Origin: Verrucomicrobiota bacterium
GTDB lineage: Bacteria > Verrucomicrobiota > Verrucomicrobiia > Chthoniobacterales > UBA10450
Assembly (NCBI GenBank): GCA_003220155.1
Contig: QHRO01000220.1
Location: forward strand, 1-33,458
Length of the DNA: 33,458 bases
Reading direction: 5' to 3'
Every line of letters begins with the position of its first letter. Position 1 is the first letter of the stretch. Positions 25,192 through 33,305 of the stretch are shown piece after piece. Below the pieces are notes generated by a model. It did not search any database, was not told the DNA's origin, and saw only the letters and a list, made by a program, of their open reading frames with translations. Both the position numbers and the translations under genes were made by a program.

Positions 25192-25385
25192 CCGGCGGCG
25201 GACGCTAGTCGTATCATGAGAGAGTGCAACGGGAAGCGGCATTGGTGAAATTACGGGAAATCGGTGGATTCAAACGAAGCAATCTCGATGCCGTTGCCGA
25301 GCTTGCCAGAGGACGACCGCTTTCTTCCATGCTTGGGCGATTCTTCCGGGTTTGACGCTGCGCGCGGGTGGAATACGCTCGGTTG

Positions 25386-25967
25386 ATGGCCACGATTACT
25401 GAGCAGGCAACATCATCGTCTGTTGGCAAGAACGCGCCCGCCGTGCAGCCGCCGATCAACCTCGAGCAGTGGATCGAACGGAATCGTGAAAAGTTTAGGC
25501 CGCCGGTGAGCAATCGTTACCTCTATGATGGGCGCGATTTTTTTGTGATGGTGATCAAGGGTCCGAATGCCCGGAATGATTTTCACCTGGTCGATTCGGA
25601 AGAATATTTTTACCAGCTCAAGGGGGACATCAAAGTGCGTATTCGCGAAGGCGATCGCATCATCGATCATCTCGTGCGTGAAGGAGAGACGTTCTTCATT
25701 CCGCCCAACGTCCCGCATGCACCGGTGCGGCCGCCGGACACCTTGGGGGTGGTAGTCGAGCGTCGCCGGCCGCCGGGTGAGCACGAGCACGTCATTTTTT
25801 ACTGCGACAATTGCGGGGCGTTAGTGGAGGACATCGATTTCGACTGCGGCGACATTGTTGAACACTTCAGTCAGGCGATGCTCGATTTTTGGAACGATGA
25901 TGCTCGGCGCACCTGTAAAAGGTGCGGCCAAAAAGTCCCGCAGCCCGAACCAGTAAAACCGTTCTAA
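25386..25967 (+). CDS. nbaC: 3-hydroxyanthranilate 3,4-dioxygenase
   Basis: Opens the ring of 3-hydroxyanthranilate to 2-amino-3-carboxymuconate semialdehyde in tryptophan breakdown (the kynurenine pathway). 193 residues from the ATG at 25386. Cupin core with the substrate/iron segment FFVMVIKGPNARNDFHLVDSEEYFYQLKGD and PPNVPHAPVRPPDTLGVVVERRRPPGEHE, holding the His/Glu/His iron ligands. The C-terminus has a rubredoxin-like metal site, CDNCG (about 140-144) and CKRCG (about 180-184), as in bacterial enzymes with the extra Fe centre. Followed after a repeat-rich gap by the ACMS decarboxylase, the next enzyme of the pathway, which supports the assignment. Confidence 0.95.
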   Translation: MATITEQATSSSVGKNAPAVQPPINLEQWIERNREKFRPPVSNRYLYDGRDFFVMVIKGPNARNDFHLVDSEEYFYQLKGDIKVRIREGDRIIDHLVREGETFFIPPNVPHAPVRPPDTLGVVVERRRPPGEHEHVIFYCDNCGALVEDIDFDCGDIVEHFSQAMLDFWNDDARRTCKRCGQKVPQPEPVKPF

Positions 25968-26308: not shown

Positions 26309-27349
26309 ATGAAGATTGACTTGCATACGCACATTTTGCCGCGGGAGTGGCCTGACCTCGACGCCAAATACGGCTATGCGGGATTCGTCCGGCTCGATCA
26401 CTACAAACCATGCTGCGCGCGGATGATGATCGGTGACCGCGTCTTTCGCGAAATCACGGACAACGTTTGGGATCCAAAACGGCGGGTCGAAGAAATGGAT
26501 CGCGAAAAAATTTCTATGCAGGTCCTCTCGACCGTGCCGGTGATGTTCAGTTATTGGGCGAAACCACACGACGCGCTCGATCTTTCACGGCGGCTGAACG
26601 ACCACATCGCGGATGTAGTCCGCGACCACCCGAAACGATTCGCTGGGTTAGCGACTATCCCGCTTCAGGATCCGGATTTGGCGGCTCAAGAGTTGGAACG
26701 TTGCGTCCGCAAGCTGGGATTGCGCGGCGCACAAATCGGCACGCACGTGGACGCAAATCCGCACTCCGGACGCATCGATACTTTGAATCTCGATAATGCG
26801 TCGCTTCAGCCTGTTTGGAGCGCGGCGGAACAACTCAACGCTGCCATCTTCGTTCATCCCTGGGACATGCTCGGCAAGGAACGCATGCCAAAATATTGGT
26901 TGCCGTGGCTCGTCGGAATGCCAGCTGAAACGTCACTCGCGATTTGTTCGATGATTTTCGGCGGCGTTCTCGAACGCTTCCCAAAGCTGCGCGTAGCTTT
27001 CGCCCACGGCGGTGGCGCGTTTCCATTTACCATCGGACGAATTGAACACGCCTTCCACGTGCGTCCCGACTTATATGACACCGATAACCTCGCGACCCCC
27101 CGCAGCTATCTCGCGCATGGTCACACCCCGGCGCGATTCTACGTTGATTCACTCGTGCACGATAAAGAAGCCTTGAAGCTTTTGCTTAAGCTATTCGGCG
27201 TAGCGCGCGTCGCCCTGGGCTCCGACTACCCGTTCCCGTTAGGCGAAGCTCATCCGGGCAAAGTCATCCAATCGCTGAAACTCACGGCGAAAGAAAAGAC
27301 ACGATTATTTTCCGGTAATGCCTGCGATTTCCTGGGCATTAATCCGTGA
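26309..27349 (+). CDS. nbaD: 2-amino-3-carboxymuconate-6-semialdehyde decarboxylase-type amidohydrolase
   Basis: 346 residues of the ACMSD branch of the metal-dependent amidohydrolases. Decarboxylates 2-amino-3-carboxymuconate semialdehyde, drawing the pathway toward the glutaryl-CoA route instead of quinolinate/NAD. Metal ligands His6 and His8 in KIDLHTH, a middle His in IFVHPWDM, a later His in AFAHGGG and an Asp in LGSDYPFPLGE are all present. Typical ACMSD segments are WDPKRRVEEMDREKISMQVLSTVPVM and LNDHIADVVRDHPKRFAGLATIPLQ. Its upstream neighbour makes its substrate. The start ATG is the second of two similar start regions; only this copy is followed by the conserved frame. Confidence 0.93.
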   Translation: MKIDLHTHILPREWPDLDAKYGYAGFVRLDHYKPCCARMMIGDRVFREITDNVWDPKRRVEEMDREKISMQVLSTVPVMFSYWAKPHDALDLSRRLNDHIADVVRDHPKRFAGLATIPLQDPDLAAQELERCVRKLGLRGAQIGTHVDANPHSGRIDTLNLDNASLQPVWSAAEQLNAAIFVHPWDMLGKERMPKYWLPWLVGMPAETSLAICSMIFGGVLERFPKLRVAFAHGGGAFPFTIGRIEHAFHVRPDLYDTDNLATPRSYLAHGHTPARFYVDSLVHDKEALKLLLKLFGVARVALGSDYPFPLGEAHPGKVIQSLKLTAKEKTRLFSGNACDFLGINP

Positions 27350-27387: not shown

Positions 27388-28014
27388 CTATATATCCGTC
27401 GGGTTCAGGAATTTGAAAGTCACTCCGGCGAGGAAGCCGCCTGCAAGCTCAGCCACGATGTGAATCCAAATGTCCCGGAAGTTGACGAGTTTCATCACTG
27501 CCGCACCGATGGCGACTGCCGGATTGAACGCGCCGCCAGAAATCGATCCGACTGCGAATATGCCGGCCAGGACCGTGAAACCGATCGCCAGGCCGTAAAA
27601 GCTGTTGTCCAGAGTGCCTTTCGCGGTCGCGCAATTCACAACGACGTATGCGAGCGCGAAAGTAAAGAGAAACTCGGCGACGAACGCGGCGGGGACATTC
27701 GTAATTTCCATCGGCGCCCCGCTTTTTCCAACGAGAAACATGGCGACGAGCGCTGCGGCAATACCGGCAGCGATTTGAGCCAGCCAGTATGGAACAACGT
27801 CTTTCATCAGCAATTTTCCACGGATGAAAACGGCGAACGTGACTGCCGGATTGAAGTGCCCGCCCGAAATGTGACCGCCGGCGAAGATCATGACCATGAG
27901 CACTGCGCCAATGGCGAGCGCAGGGATGACACCTGCCGGGGCGGGGATAACAGTGCAGCCGACGGTAAGGACGAGGAAGAAGGTGCCAATAAATTCCGCA
28001 ATATATTTTCTCAT
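27388..28014 (-). CDS. MIP-family channel (aquaporin-like), atypical filter
   Basis: 208 residues, six membrane helices (starting IAEFIGTFFLVLTVGCTV) and two half-helices. NPA motifs are at 55-57 (GGHFNPAV) and 164-166 (GGAFNPAV). Members pass water, glycerol or small solutes down gradients. In AqpZ and GlpF the residue after the second NPA is Arg, the selectivity-filter arginine (NPAR). Here it is Val, so the pore should be less polar and its selectivity cannot be taken as water. It sits convergently between the decarboxylase (38 bp from its stop) and the tryptophan dioxygenase gene, which runs in the same direction as the channel, so it may belong to the same catabolic group. Confidence 0.85.
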   Translation of the reverse strand: MRKYIAEFIGTFFLVLTVGCTVIPAPAGVIPALAIGAVLMVMIFAGGHISGGHFNPAVTFAVFIRGKLLMKDVVPYWLAQIAAGIAAALVAMFLVGKSGAPMEITNVPAAFVAEFLFTFALAYVVVNCATAKGTLDNSFYGLAIGFTVLAGIFAVGSISGGAFNPAVAIGAAVMKLVNFRDIWIHIVAELAGGFLAGVTFKFLNPTDI

Positions 28015-28180: not shown

Positions 28181-28975
28181 TCACATCTTGTGCCTGATGG
28201 CCCACAGATCGTGGAAAATCGGTTTGAACAACGACTCTTTCAGAAATGGCACGCCAGGCGATCCGCCAGTGCCGTGTTTCGCGCCGATCGTTCGCTCGAC
28301 AAGCTTGATGTGTCGATAACGCCACTCCTGCAATCCTTCATCGAAATCGGTCATCAATTCGAAAAGGATAGTGAGTTCGGGTGAGCCTTGGTAAAGCCGA
28401 AGAATTTCTTTCTGCACTTGCTCGTCAGGGCCGTTCGCCTGTAAAAGGTCGCGATTTTTGAGCTCCGCTGGAATCTGGGCGCCGCGAGTCGCGAGGAAAT
28501 CGTAGAAATGGTCGATTACGGTGCGCTCGCCGAGTCGCTGTTGTAAACGATCGTGACCGGGAAAATCTGGGCGAACGTAATTAAGCGTCGAGGCCCGTTT
28601 GTATCCGAGCACAAATTCAATTTCTCGAAACTGGATCGACTGAAACCCCGAGGCGGTTTCGAGCCGGTCGCGAAAGCTGGAGAAGGACGCCGGAGTCATC
28701 GTCTCAAGAATGTCTACCTGTGCAACCAGCGTCTTCATGATGGTCCGAGTGCGCTTGAAGGAATGAATCGCGCCGAAGAGATCGCCTGCGGAAAAATCCT
28801 TCTTAATTTTTTCAAACTCATGCAGTAGCTGCTTGAACCAGAGCTCGTAAGTTTGGTGAATGATGATGAAGAGCATTTCATCATGTTCCGCTGGCGTTGA
28901 GCGCGGTTTCTGAAGAGTCAAGAGCTTCTCCAAGTCCAAATAGTTAGCATACGTGAGCGGAGGCATACCGCTCAT
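28181..28975 (-). CDS. kynA: tryptophan 2,3-dioxygenase
   Basis: Heme enzyme that opens the indole ring of tryptophan to N-formylkynurenine, the entry step of the kynurenine pathway. 264 residues. It has YANYLDLEKLLTLQKPRS, the active-site HDEMLFIIIHQTYELWFKQLLHE with His40, the family block ETMTPASFSSFRDRLETASGFQSIQFREIE and, near the C-terminus, YRHIKLVERTIGAKHGTGGSPG with His222 as heme ligand. Start ATG at 28975; a second ATG three codons on is equally possible. Formamidase, kynurenine monooxygenase and kynureninase are not in the window. An 8-bp repeat array lies immediately upstream, between this gene and the Rieske gene. Confidence 0.96.
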   Translation of the reverse strand: MSGMPPLTYANYLDLEKLLTLQKPRSTPAEHDEMLFIIIHQTYELWFKQLLHEFEKIKKDFSAGDLFGAIHSFKRTRTIMKTLVAQVDILETMTPASFSSFRDRLETASGFQSIQFREIEFVLGYKRASTLNYVRPDFPGHDRLQQRLGERTVIDHFYDFLATRGAQIPAELKNRDLLQANGPDEQVQKEILRLYQGSPELTILFELMTDFDEGLQEWRYRHIKLVERTIGAKHGTGGSPGVPFLKESLFKPIFHDLWAIRHKM

Positions 28976-29101: not shown

Positions 29102-30226
29102 TTAATGCATCATGCTAAGATAATACCTGTCCCACGCCGCAGGAATACTTTCGCGCGAACTATACGGCCCCGGCTCATACACACGCGACGCGATTCCTTG
29201 CTGGCTCAACTCGCAGACGTGCCAATCCTGTGTGTTCGTCATGTTCCAGAATTCGATCGCGTCATCGGGTTTGAAATCGGATCGATTGAACGCGTCCGGA
29301 TGAAATAGCCAATCGCACACAATCAGTGTTCGTTCTGGTGAGTGGGGCCAGAGCTGATGCACCATCACGTATTCGGGATGCAGACTGAGAAGCATGTTCG
29401 GGAAAATCGAATAATAAAAAACCTGCTGAAGATTCTCGATCTTGCCGACGAACGCTGCGCAAGCGTTTCCGCTCATGGTCAGGCTCTTGCCAGGATTGAT
29501 CTTCATAAATCCGCCGAGGAACGGCCCTTCGCGCAGGTCGTTCTCCGCCGAATCGTACGGTGAAACTTTCTGTAATTGCGGATGCACACCCGGGCAGTGG
29601 TAGCACTCCGAATAATTCTCGAACATCAACTTCCAATTGGCTTGCACGTCGTACTCAACCCGTTTCGCCGGGCGCAAGATCGACATATTCCAATGCGAAA
29701 ACTTCCCGTTCAACTCCGCGAACCATTCTTCCAGTGGCATCGCGTTCTCATCGAGATTGATGAAGATGAATCCTTCCCAAAGCGCGAGATTCACCGCGCG
29801 CAAGGAATAATCAGCCTTATCGAACCCCGGCACTTCATCCATGTGCGGCGCGCCGATCAGCCGACCATCGAGCCGGTAGGTCCAGGCGTGATACGGACAC
29901 TGAATCGCGGACGCGTGGCCGCACGCGTCTTCCTTCAAGCGCGTCCCACGATGCCGGCAGACGTTGAAGAATCCGTGAATTCTTCCGTTTTTATCCCTGA
30001 CAACAATTAACGATTCTCTATTAACTTCAGCGACGAAGTAATCTCCGTTGCGGACAATCTGACTCTGATGCCCGACCAATATCCATTGCTTTGAGAAGAG
30101 TTGTTCTTGTTCCTGCCGAAAAATTTCGTCCGAGACAAAGTATTGTTGCGGCAAAGTTTTTGCCGCGGCGGCGAAAGTATCCGCAGTTTTCCTAAAAACG
30201 GCGGGGACTGAAGCAACTTTATTCAT
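29102..30226 (-). CDS. Rieske non-heme iron oxygenase (ring-hydroxylating alpha-subunit type)
   Basis: 374 residues from the ATG at 30226 (MNKVASVPAVF); the frame is open further upstream but without a conserved start. N-terminal Rieske domain with CRHRG (first Cys-x-His) and CPYHAWTY (second Cys-x2-His). The catalytic domain carries the mononuclear iron motif NYSECYHCPGVHP and a distal acidic ligand region. It resembles the GbcA/choline- or carnitine-monooxygenase branch as much as aromatic dioxygenases, so the substrate is open. A quaternary amine, an aromatic acid and a pathway product are all possible. A separate reductase would be required; none is visible here. Lies upstream of kynA on the same strand (126-bp gap). 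Confidence 0.88.
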   Translation of the reverse strand: MNKVASVPAVFRKTADTFAAAAKTLPQQYFVSDEIFRQEQEQLFSKQWILVGHQSQIVRNGDYFVAEVNRESLIVVRDKNGRIHGFFNVCRHRGTRLKEDACGHASAIQCPYHAWTYRLDGRLIGAPHMDEVPGFDKADYSLRAVNLALWEGFIFINLDENAMPLEEWFAELNGKFSHWNMSILRPAKRVEYDVQANWKLMFENYSECYHCPGVHPQLQKVSPYDSAENDLREGPFLGGFMKINPGKSLTMSGNACAAFVGKIENLQQVFYYSIFPNMLLSLHPEYVMVHQLWPHSPERTLIVCDWLFHPDAFNRSDFKPDDAIEFWNMTNTQDWHVCELSQQGIASRVYEPGPYSSRESIPAAWDRYYLSMMH

Positions 30227-30269
30227 CCTTTGCGTGCCATAGTGATTCTTGCTACCTAAGGCGGCTAAA

Positions 30270-30311
30270 ATCCAGCATCCAGCAGGCAACATCGACTATC
30301 AAGTATCGGCC
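30270..30311. repeat. phased heptamer array (ATCCAGC-like)
   Basis: Six 7-bp units: ATCCAGC twice, AGGCAAC, ATCGACT, ATCAAGT, ATCGGCC. Lies upstream of the Rieske gene and downstream of the permease gene. Confidence 0.45.
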
Positions 30312-30355: not shown

Positions 30356-33025
30356 TTAAATCCGCAAGGCGCGGACGGGATCGACGCGGGTGGCGCGGCG
30401 GGCCGGGAGGAAGCAGGCGAGCAGCGCAACCGCGATCAAAATAATCAGAGCTGCGCCGAATGCGATTGGGTCGCGCGGGCTGACTTTGTAAAGCAGGTTC
30501 CCCATCAAGCGCGTCAGCAGCAATGCCGCGGCGGCGCCGACCACGACTCCGGCGATGGTTAATCGCAAACCGCGTGACATGACCAATCGCAAAACATCTC
30601 GCACACCAGCGCCGAGCGCCATGCGGACGCCGAGCTCGCGCGTGCTTTGCGAAACCGAATACGACATGACGCCGTAAAGTCCGATCGCGGCGAGAAACAA
30701 CGCCATCCCGCCAAAAATCGCGAGCAACGTGGCCGCGAGTCGCTGAGTGTAGCCCCGTTGGTCCACTTGCTCTTGCAAACGATCCGCGGCGTATGGCGCC
30801 AAGGTCGGATCGAGCGCGTGGACTTCGCGCGACAGCGCATTCGTGATCGCGCCCGGAGTTTCCCGTGTGCGGATGAGCAAAGTGTTCCCGACAAAAAAGT
30901 TCTGGCGAACCGGCACATAAAAGAACGACCTCGGAGCTTCAAGCTTTGTTTCGTAGTACACATTTTTTGCGACACCGACGATTTGCATCCAGGTATCTTT
31001 CACTTTGAGCCGTTGGCCGAGAGGATCTTTTCCCTGCCAATATTTCGCCGCCATCGTTTCATTGATGATCGCGACTCGCGGCGAATCCTCGTCGTCATTT
31101 CGAGTAAACTCACGGCCGGCGACCAGCGGGATCCCGAGAGTGGAAAAATAATCCTCGCTGACCTGAACATAATCCGCGTTCGGTTGCTCATCAGGTGCGG
31201 GCTGGTAGCGATCGATCTCGATCGGCGCGGAAGAAGGAGGGTTGTAACTGAACGGCATTACCCGTGTCAAAGCCGCGGACTCAACACCGGGGAGCGCGCG
31301 GACGCGATCGAGCAACTGCGTGTGAAAAATTTTAGCGCGATCGAGTTTGTAACCTGCCGAAAATAAATCAACGACTGACACAATCACATTGTTGGTCAAG
31401 AAACCGGGACTCGTGTTTTGCATTCGCTGCAGGCTTTGCAAAAGCAAGCCGGTGCCGGCGAGGAGAACAAAACTGAGCGAGATCTGGACCAGCACCAAAG
31501 TCGATCGCAATCGCGATCGCCCGTGCCCACCGATGACTCCGGCGCCTTCGCTTTTGAGTGCGCCGGAAAGATCGACATGGCTCGCTTGGACGGCGGGCAT
31601 GAGCGCGAAAAGCATTGTCGATCCAATGCAGATCGCGATGCTAAGCAGGAGAACGCGCCAATCCATGCTTCCGGGATAATCAATCGTGATCCCGGGCACC
31701 GATGGCGGAAACGCGAGCACGAGCGCGTTGCGGCTCCAATAGGCGACTGCGATTCCGCCGAGAGCGGCGATCAACGAAAGAAGCAAGCCTTCGGTGAAGA
31801 GTTGCTTGATCAAACGGCGGCGTCCGGCGCCGAGCGCAAGCCGCATCGTCATTTCATGTCGGCGCAAGAGTGATCGCGCGAGCAAAAGATTGCTCACGTT
31901 GGCGCAAGCGATGAGGAGGACAAAGAAAACGACGGCCGCGGTGATGCCGAGCGTCGTCGAAATCCCGCCCGCTGCGTTGAACGGCGTTTTCCACAATGGC
32001 AAAAGCGAAATCTCGTGGCCGCGATCTGTTTCGGGATAATCGTTCTCCAATCGTTTTGCGATCGCCGAAAGTTCCGCCTGCCCTTGCTGCCGCGTAACGC
32101 CCGGTTTCAAAAACGCGTAACCTTCAATCCAACGCGCGCCCCGATCTTCGAGTTTGTAGCCCGTGTTATCGAACGTCTCCTGCATCGACGTCGGTACCCA
32201 GAAGTTGAACGAGTAGCCGATGAACGTGCCGTGGAATTTTTCCGGCGCCACGCCGATGATCGTGTGCTGAACGCCGTTCATAAACTGCGTTTTGCCAATG
32301 ATGTCGGGATCGCTTTTGTAACGATTCTTCCACGTCATGTAACTTATGACTGTGACCGGGTGCGCGTTGCGTCCGGTGCCTTCTTCGGGTCGAAAGCCGC
32401 GGCCGAGAATTGGCCGCACGCCGAGGGCGTCAAAATAATTCGCGGACACCATTCCTCCGACCGCACGCTCGGCGCGGTCGCCACTGCTCAGCGTTGTGCC
32501 TGTGATTTTATCGACAATGAATGACTCAAAAAGCGTCGAGTTCTTTTGGAAATCGAGAAGGTCCGGATAAGAAAGGCCTTTGTAACCCTCGGTGCCGCGG
32601 ATGGTGGCGTTGAGCGCGAACATTCGATCCTGGTGCGCGACGAGCGGATAGGGGCGGATGAGAATCCCTTCGATCCAACTTAAGGCGGCTGCGTTGGTGC
32701 CGATGCCGAGGGTCAGACAAAGAATTGCCAGAATGGAAAATCCCGGCGTGCGCCAAAGCATTCGCGCACCGAAGCGAACGTCCTGAACAAATTCATCCGC
32801 CCATCGCCAGAGCCGTTGTTCGCGCGCGACTTCTTTGATCTGCTCGACGCCGCCGAACTGCCGCAGCGCTGCGTTGCGGGCCTCGTGAGGCAACATGCCT
32901 GCGGCGATATTTCGCTCAGTCAGAAGATCGAGATGTTGTTGTATTTCTTCGGCCATCTCGGCATCCCGACTGTTTTTGGAAAACAGTCCGAGGAGTCGAG
33001 AAAACCAGGCGCGGAGTCGCGGCAT
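30356..33025 (-). CDS. ADOP-family (MacB-like) ABC transporter permease
   Basis: 889 residues from the ATG at 33025 (MPRLRAWFSRLLGLFSK); a longer in-frame extension overlaps the PadR gene. The N-terminal segment AEEIQQHLDLLTERNIAAGMLPHEARNAALRQFGGVEQIKE is the extra domain typical of acidobacterial duplicated orphan permeases. Two MacB_PCD plus FtsX modules follow: helices near LRTPGF-like FGARMLWRTPGFSILAILCLTLGIGTN, a periplasmic domain, then AVVFFVLLIACANVSNLLLARSLLRRHEMTMRLALGAGRRRLI, and a second FtsX block ALFLAAIGLYGVMSYSVSQSTRELGVRMALGAGVRDVLRLV, ending RRATRVDPVRALRI. No ATPase gene is adjacent, as is usual for these orphans. The transported substrate is unknown; a role in export or tension sensing is speculative. 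Confidence 0.92.
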   Translation of the reverse strand: MPRLRAWFSRLLGLFSKNSRDAEMAEEIQQHLDLLTERNIAAGMLPHEARNAALRQFGGVEQIKEVAREQRLWRWADEFVQDVRFGARMLWRTPGFSILAILCLTLGIGTNAAALSWIEGILIRPYPLVAHQDRMFALNATIRGTEGYKGLSYPDLLDFQKNSTLFESFIVDKITGTTLSSGDRAERAVGGMVSANYFDALGVRPILGRGFRPEEGTGRNAHPVTVISYMTWKNRYKSDPDIIGKTQFMNGVQHTIIGVAPEKFHGTFIGYSFNFWVPTSMQETFDNTGYKLEDRGARWIEGYAFLKPGVTRQQGQAELSAIAKRLENDYPETDRGHEISLLPLWKTPFNAAGGISTTLGITAAVVFFVLLIACANVSNLLLARSLLRRHEMTMRLALGAGRRRLIKQLFTEGLLLSLIAALGGIAVAYWSRNALVLAFPPSVPGITIDYPGSMDWRVLLLSIAICIGSTMLFALMPAVQASHVDLSGALKSEGAGVIGGHGRSRLRSTLVLVQISLSFVLLAGTGLLLQSLQRMQNTSPGFLTNNVIVSVVDLFSAGYKLDRAKIFHTQLLDRVRALPGVESAALTRVMPFSYNPPSSAPIEIDRYQPAPDEQPNADYVQVSEDYFSTLGIPLVAGREFTRNDDEDSPRVAIINETMAAKYWQGKDPLGQRLKVKDTWMQIVGVAKNVYYETKLEAPRSFFYVPVRQNFFVGNTLLIRTRETPGAITNALSREVHALDPTLAPYAADRLQEQVDQRGYTQRLAATLLAIFGGMALFLAAIGLYGVMSYSVSQSTRELGVRMALGAGVRDVLRLVMSRGLRLTIAGVVVGAAAALLLTRLMGNLLYKVSPRDPIAFGAALIILIAVALLACFLPARRATRVDPVRALRI

Positions 33026-33032
33026 AAACGAT

Positions 33033-33305
33033 TCAGGTTCCGGAAAGGACGAGATCGATTCCCTTGGTAATGCGCAGCCAGTGGTCCTTTTCCGCTGCAA
33101 GCTGTTTGCGTCCGGCCGAGGTCAGTTTGTAATAACGGGCTTTACGATTGTTATCAGACACGCCCCATTCTACACGCAAAATGTCCTGAGACATCTGCTG
33201 GATCCGATCGGCGATCGCGAGGCCGTGCCGCGGGTCGTGTTGGAGCGCCTTCAAGATCAACATGTCGAGCGTTCCGTAAACCAAGTCTGGTTTCTCTTTC
33301 GCCAT
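33033..33305 (-). CDS. PadR-family regulator with an internal deletion
   Basis: 90 residues from the ATG at 33305 (MAKEKPDLVYGTLDMLILKALQ); a TTG four codons upstream also fits. PadR regulators are winged-helix dimers; members beside ADOP permeases usually repress them. The N-terminal helices (HDPRHGLAIADRIQQMSQDILRV) and the second wing (EWGVSDNNRKARYYKLTSAGRKQL) are clear. Between RV and EW the normal NQGSLYPALHRLEQQGWI-type segment, about 20 residues with the recognition helix and the start of the wing, is missing without a frameshift. DNA binding should be impaired. The gene is 7 nt upstream of the permease gene and starts just after a promoter with a repeated operator-like motif. Confidence 0.85.
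   Translation of the reverse strand: MAKEKPDLVYGTLDMLILKALQHDPRHGLAIADRIQQMSQDILRVEWGVSDNNRKARYYKLTSAGRKQLAAEKDHWLRITKGIDLVLSGT

Follow-up and report, generated by a model that had tools for sequence, protein, structure and literature searches.

The window, a 33,458-nucleotide stretch of DNA from a soil bacterium of the Verrucomicrobiota, carries a gene for a MIP channel next to genes assigned to tryptophan degradation. The features of the locus are listed below; the coordinates of the NPA boxes and of the Val167 codon were computed from the open reading frame.

25368..25967, plus strand: 3-hydroxyanthranilate 3,4-dioxygenase (3-HAO; PF06052, 3.3e-43; TIGR03037, above cut-off)
26309..27349, plus strand: Amidohydro_2 protein, ACMSD-like by context (PF04909, 8.2e-42), convergent with the MIP gene
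27388..28014, minus strand: MIP channel gene, ATG start, 208 aa (PF00230, E 3.7e-35)
27514..27516, minus strand: Val167 codon at LE2, the position of Arg in Arg-type MIPs (alignment to AqpZ)
27517..27525, minus strand: second NPA box, residues 164-166, NPAVA (sequence and alignment)
27844..27852, minus strand: first NPA box, residues 55-57, NPAVT (sequence and alignment)
28181..28975, minus strand: tryptophan 2,3-dioxygenase (PF03301, 2e-56; TIGR03036, 7.3e-73, 245.2 bits, below the cut-off of 390.7)

The dioxygenase gene is co-directional with the MIP gene and lies 166 bp upstream of it. These flanks agree with the location between ACMSD and tryptophan dioxygenase genes given in the original prediction, the ACMSD label being taken from context; no NCBIfam model matched the Amidohydro_2 protein at 0.001. 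Beyond the dioxygenase come a Rieske oxygenase (29102-30292), which resembles GbcA but scores under the NCBIfam cut-off, and a permease of the ADOP family (30356-33100). Several members of the genus have homologues of both in the corresponding position. Positions 1-22000 were examined as open reading frames only. No promoter or terminator signal around the MIP gene rose above shuffles.

The protein belongs to the MIP superfamily by its score against Pfam PF00230 (122.2 bits, cut-off 25) and by an AlphaFold2 model made with 107 aligned relatives (mean pLDDT 95.0, pTM 0.92), in which six helices and two half-helices are predicted in the MIP order (residues 2-22, 29-50, 56-65, 70-95, 107-129, 140-159, 165-173 and 179-203). 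Its closest fold in the PDB is AtTIP2;1 (5i32; TM 0.86 by query length), which is also its best PDB sequence match. Both NPA boxes are intact, as had been claimed, and the Val noted after the second box was confirmed as V167 at filter position LE2. Alignment to E. coli AqpZ (from MG1655) places F43, H174, T183 and R189 of that channel against I35, I152, G161 and V167, and the selectivity filter of the window MIP thus reads I35-I152-G161-V167 (IIGV). Because all four positions are small or aliphatic, a less polar filter can fairly be inferred from the sequence. The pore may be wider as well as less polar, as proposed earlier. The Froger positions P2-P5 are A168, A172, H185 and I186. Compared with five genomes of the same gene order, dN/dS is 0.06-0.13, so the gene is a product of neither chance nor decay, and purifying selection acts on it. 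The same genome encodes a second MIP, which bears the Arg (L001).

Gene order at the tryptophan locus

Among the 83 genomes of the window's family (its own included), 37 have a MIP match at E 1e-30 or better, the match in G079 containing three stops. Seven of these 37 (G000, G011, G012, G013, G014, G016 and G017), all of one genus, have the MIP flanked by the dioxygenase and ACMSD-like genes, the match at this locus being only partial in G011. The fetched MIP flanks of 14 other family genomes contain no dioxygenase, HAO, ACMSD-like or Rieske gene. For the remaining 16, either the MIP falls on a separate contig from the dioxygenase and HAO genes or no match to the latter was obtained, and a few cases may be hidden by contig breaks. 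The tryptophan locus was also found without a MIP in 20 relatives (20 loci fetched).

In four of those 20 (G009, G010, G001 and G038), an arylformamidase-like gene takes the slot that follows the dioxygenase, between it and the ACMSD-like gene (seen at L133 737-1835, L134 2004-2693, L135 936-1826 and L136 1862-4173). The copy in G010 reaches 194.4 bits against TIGR03035 (cut-off 223.05), that in G009 is 77% identical to it, and those in G001 and G038 were identified by sequence likeness. A diverged homologue, 35-38% identical, is found elsewhere in six of the seven genomes with a MIP in the slot; none was found in G011. Each of the genus's 11 genomes has a kynureninase match, which is above cut-off in 10. 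Since the MIP occupies a slot where some relatives have kynB, it is read as a replacement or insertion in one lineage. Its place between the two genes would then be a genus-level event, which looks like a local accident and not a role in the pathway. The window offers a caution in this respect: even where a whole genus has a gene embedded in a metabolic cluster, the gene may have no part in the pathway.

An Arg-less clade of bacterial MIPs

A contig scan with the window protein confirmed at least 519 stretches as relatives. The best 80 of these, taken forward as loci, are 56-99% identical to the window MIP, carry Val at LE2 without exception (80/80), and come from Verrucomicrobiota, Planctomycetota, Acidobacteriota, Nitrosomonas, Actinomycetota, Chloroflexota, Bacteroidota and others. 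As the window protein served as the query for all relatives, the sample describes its own clade and not MIPs at large. Among 175 aligned MIPs, LE2 is Val or Ile in 138 and Arg in 36, and one sequence (L219) is truncated. The filter Ile-Ala-Gly-Val (IAGV) is found in 115 of the 138 Val/Ile sequences; within the tree set, IIGV is limited to the window MIP, L003 and L004.

A phylogeny of NPAV-type MIPs had been proposed as a check. In a FastTree phylogeny of 172 of the 175 sequences (L016, L219 and L270 were left out), the 136 Val/Ile sequences all fall into one clade (SH-like support 0.852, stem 0.60) apart from the 36 Arg-bearing MIPs. With Val at LE2 and its placement in this group, the window MIP belongs to the Arg-less I-x-(G/A)-V clade. 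The possibility that an Arg is supplied from another position, raised in the original prediction as a refutation, found no support: a search of the 136 sequences for an Arg conserved in more than 80% gave a single residue, R65, present in 136/136. It lies 10 residues beyond the first residue of NPA1, where the half-helix ends. By MIP topology, this half-helix is directed towards the cytoplasm and not towards the filter. By sequence, the missing filter Arg is a trait of the whole clade.

The clade is monophyletic and patchily distributed among bacteria. Members were detected in 13 of 199 genomes of Acidobacteriota (E 1e-35 or better, G083 included) and, at E 1e-45 or better, in 4 of 296 of Actinomycetota (G084 included), 4 of 246 of Planctomycetota (G090 included) and 6 of 247 of Bacteroidota (G091 included). 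A phage or plasmid origin was considered and rejected: no relative was confirmed in viral contigs, the eight phage records with a match all had less than 60% identity, and one of 112 matching plasmid records was more than 60% identical.

Several individual loci may be recorded here. Two Val-type relatives (L119 6335-6814, in G011, and L162 8001-8625) match partly or in several pieces, for which frameshift, decay or assembly error are all possible. The acidobacterial MAG G083 has at least four Val-type MIP genes (L051, L062, L203 and L204), three of them preceded by catalase. Two plasmid MIPs (L219 476-3630 and L217 1632-3639, about 34% identical) lie beside a gene for a radical SAM protein with an RCCLKC tail, and the Alicyclobacillus plasmid MIP is also beside a gene annotated as a putative arsinothricin-biosynthesis ArsM. 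LE2 is Arg in L217, and L219 reads as truncated.

Arsenic and peroxide genes beside relatives

Across 135 Val-type loci, ars genes (ACR3, ArsC or ArsJ-type GAPDH) lie within 1.5 kb of the MIP in nine, of which L066 has no more than a GAPDH of 42% identity, and peroxide/iron genes (catalase, ferritin/DPS, rubrerythrin-like, peroxiredoxin, MsrA) in 14. Either context is found in 23 and neither in 112. The order acr3-arsC-MIP runs in line in L264, L071 and L253, and acr3-MIP in L058; in L254, L081 and L049 the MIP and arsR point away from each other, and L049 also carries ArsJ, the ArsJ-associated GAPDH and an ACR3 homologue. These relatives (L049, L058, L071, L081, L253, L254 and L264) belong, fully or nearly, to the ars-operon MIPs. 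In L118, from the window's own family (74% identical), an ACR3 gene is convergent with the MIP (TIGR00832, 279.3 bits, cut-off 282.8). Catalase genes overlap the MIP start in L051, L062 and L203, the matches running 10-16 bases into the MIP (L044 and L204 were not counted as catalase loci), and a DPS-like gene lies 19-31 bp downstream in L046, L047, L060 and L068. Other neighbours of this kind are ferritin-like (L196), a peroxiredoxin (L029), MsrA (L070) and, on plasmid L161, a gene of the "ferritin family" (rubrerythrin-like, below cut-off) together with VIT. The scanned neighbours of the window MIP itself include neither an ars nor a peroxide gene, and it is not an AqpS-like ars-operon MIP. 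In L081 (3498-6624), besides the Val-type MIP that diverges from arsR, the ars cluster has another MIP, of 289 aa, located after arsC.

Pfam scans covered 180 of 191 neighbour genes and then 78 of 80 more, duplicates L201 and L202 and plasmids L161 and L162 having been left out before the 80 were counted; L270 was omitted from one set of 20 loci. Near the MIPs, catalase was tallied at 4/92 and 2/78, ferritin at 4/92 and AhpC/TSA at 2/88, in tallies that cover the first 25 families each and so may hide singletons. No single neighbour family common to most of the clade was found. Among the far genes (more than 2.5 kb from MIPs), a random 145 of 260 were scanned; these gave two matches to the ArsC family PF03960 and no catalase or ferritin within their first 25 families.

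Both contexts are concentrated near the MIP: nine loci have ars genes within 1.5 kb against one with such genes only beyond (p 8e-5, binomial), and 14 against three have peroxide genes (p 5e-6), in a near/far test that is partly circular because the panel was drawn from the same loci. At the 19 loci not used to build the panel, ars genes were near at three and far at one (p 0.06), and no peroxide genes were detected; in a Pfam scan of 54 genes beside these loci, ACR3-type SBF, low-molecular-weight ArsC and ArsR were each seen two times and ArsP_1 a single time. Relatedness among loci is not taken into account by the binomial tests; going by record titles, every catalase locus is acidobacterial and each of the four DPS loci is from an actinomycete. 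On the tree, Fitch parsimony counts five changes for ars (nine loci, L252 taken and L066 not) and nine for peroxide (14 loci).

Arg-type MIPs served as controls. Either context occurs at 23 of 135 Val-type and 1 of 20 Arg-type loci, a non-significant difference (Fisher p 0.32), and the ars context alone at 9/135 and 1/20 (p 1.0); the panel thus gave one ars and no peroxide locus among the 20. Their Pfam scan gave one AhpC/TSA protein, FGGY kinases twice and one ammonium-transporter family. FGGY kinases are expected beside glycerol channels. The Arg-type MIP of L276 (5401-6541) is beside an arsenate-reductase-like gene (TIGR02691, 143.6 bits, cut-off 174.3).

Candidate solutes and known channels

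Altogether, the window MIP may be best explained, tentatively and at a little less than an even chance, as a passive channel for small neutral solutes, with As(OH)3 and/or H2O2 as the best candidates. As a member of a monophyletic, patchy clade of Arg-less bacterial MIPs, with a filter that is mostly Ile-Ala-Gly-Val, it would be driven by gradients and would pass solutes that are small, uncharged and somewhat larger or less polar than water, and its functional place would probably be with detoxification. We infer both the solutes and the direction of flux, the former from the neighbours of relatives, and the lack of an ars or peroxide neighbour at the window MIP is the weakest link of the explanation. 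A more specific version, possible but doubtful, holds the clade to be a dedicated detoxification channel, which would carry As(OH)3 and H2O2 towards or away from the products of adjoining genes (ArsC/ACR3, catalase, DPS) and work with an ACR3 pump, not replace one as in S. meliloti. The two contexts involve different solutes, which argues against one fixed substrate.

Three other roles rank behind an As(OH)3/H2O2-type channel, in the order water, gas/ammonia or unspecific passage, and a tryptophan-pathway solute. An ordinary osmotic water channel, with Val merely in place of Arg, would accord with the MIP fold and the two intact NPA boxes, and plant TIPs with HIA/GR/V filters are counted among the AQP families in PMC8355241. 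However, IIGV has no residue in common with the FHTR filter of AqpZ, the genome already has its Arg-bearing MIP, and water passage by IAGV channels is called unclear in PMC6912568; this role appears unlikely. It also seems rather improbable that the protein conducts gases or ammonia, or that it passes neutral solutes broadly and unspecifically, its neighbours saying little. The hydrophobic filter, a top fold match titled ammonia-permeable and the 112 of 135 loci without panel neighbours speak for such a role; the concentration of ars and peroxide genes near the MIP does not, and no ammonium-transporter family appears in the first 25 families of any Val-type neighbour tally.

Passage of a neutral metabolite of tryptophan breakdown (or of formic acid or ammonia), with the MIP functionally part of the dioxygenase operon, was the role originally raised and is now very unlikely. 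The gene is co-directional with the dioxygenase at a short distance, is kept in seven genomes of the genus and under purifying selection in the five compared, and stands in a slot that holds a kynurenine-pathway gene (arylformamidase-like) in four relatives. Against this, the neighbourhood is limited to seven genomes of one genus, the lack of conservation that the original prediction had named as a refutation, so the link to tryptophan degradation fails and this transport role was rejected on synteny: 20 relatives have the locus without the MIP, 14 family MIPs have no tryptophan genes in their fetched flanks, and in the other 16 the two were on different contigs or the pathway genes were not found. 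Kynurenine intermediates are, moreover, charged or zwitterionic.

Among known systems, the arsenic setting recalls AqpS of Sinorhizobium meliloti, which has Val at LE2. Like AqpS and the other ars-operon MIPs (PMC4435449), several relatives in the clade are located in ars operons; the window MIP is not beside ars genes. In the survey of PMC4435449, all 18 ars-operon MIPs were without another transporter, whereas clade relatives sit beside ACR3, a setting in which a MIP without the filter Arg may work beside an arsenite pump. The MIP fold and NPA boxes are common to the window MIP and to E. coli AqpZ and GlpF, but the filters are FHTR in AqpZ and WGFR in GlpF, and IIGV fits neither the water-type F(H/I)XR nor the glycerol-type WG(F/Y)R as given in PMC6912568. 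The plant TIPs, nearest in the PDB through AtTIP2;1, differ by having His at H2 (HIA/GR/V, by the summary in PMC8355241), where the window MIP has Ile.

Other likenesses are offered by the AQPX/AqpX grade, in which many members are described by Tesan et al. 2021 (PMC8355241) as having Val at LE2 and an aliphatic filter. The window MIP has the Val (V167), an aliphatic TM2 residue (I35) and the Ala at Froger P2 in common with this grade; set against the published description, its P2-P5 residues (A-A-H-I) are not the AQYW of kinetoplastid AQPX. No link of the Arg-less clade to ars or catalase genes was found among the top-ranked matches of a literature search. The IAGV filter of Planctomycetes and Verrucomicrobia is already in print (Tong et al. 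2019, PMC6912568), where it is reported, without a settled function, for an aquaporin of Singulisphaera, Isosphaera, Methylacidiphilum and Opitutus. Judged by that description, the window MIP has in common with these channels Ile at H2, Gly at LE1 and Val at LE2 and differs by Ile at H5, and its relatives are for the most part exactly IAGV. For this IAGV group, the neighbourhoods described here suggest arsenite and hydrogen peroxide as substrates.
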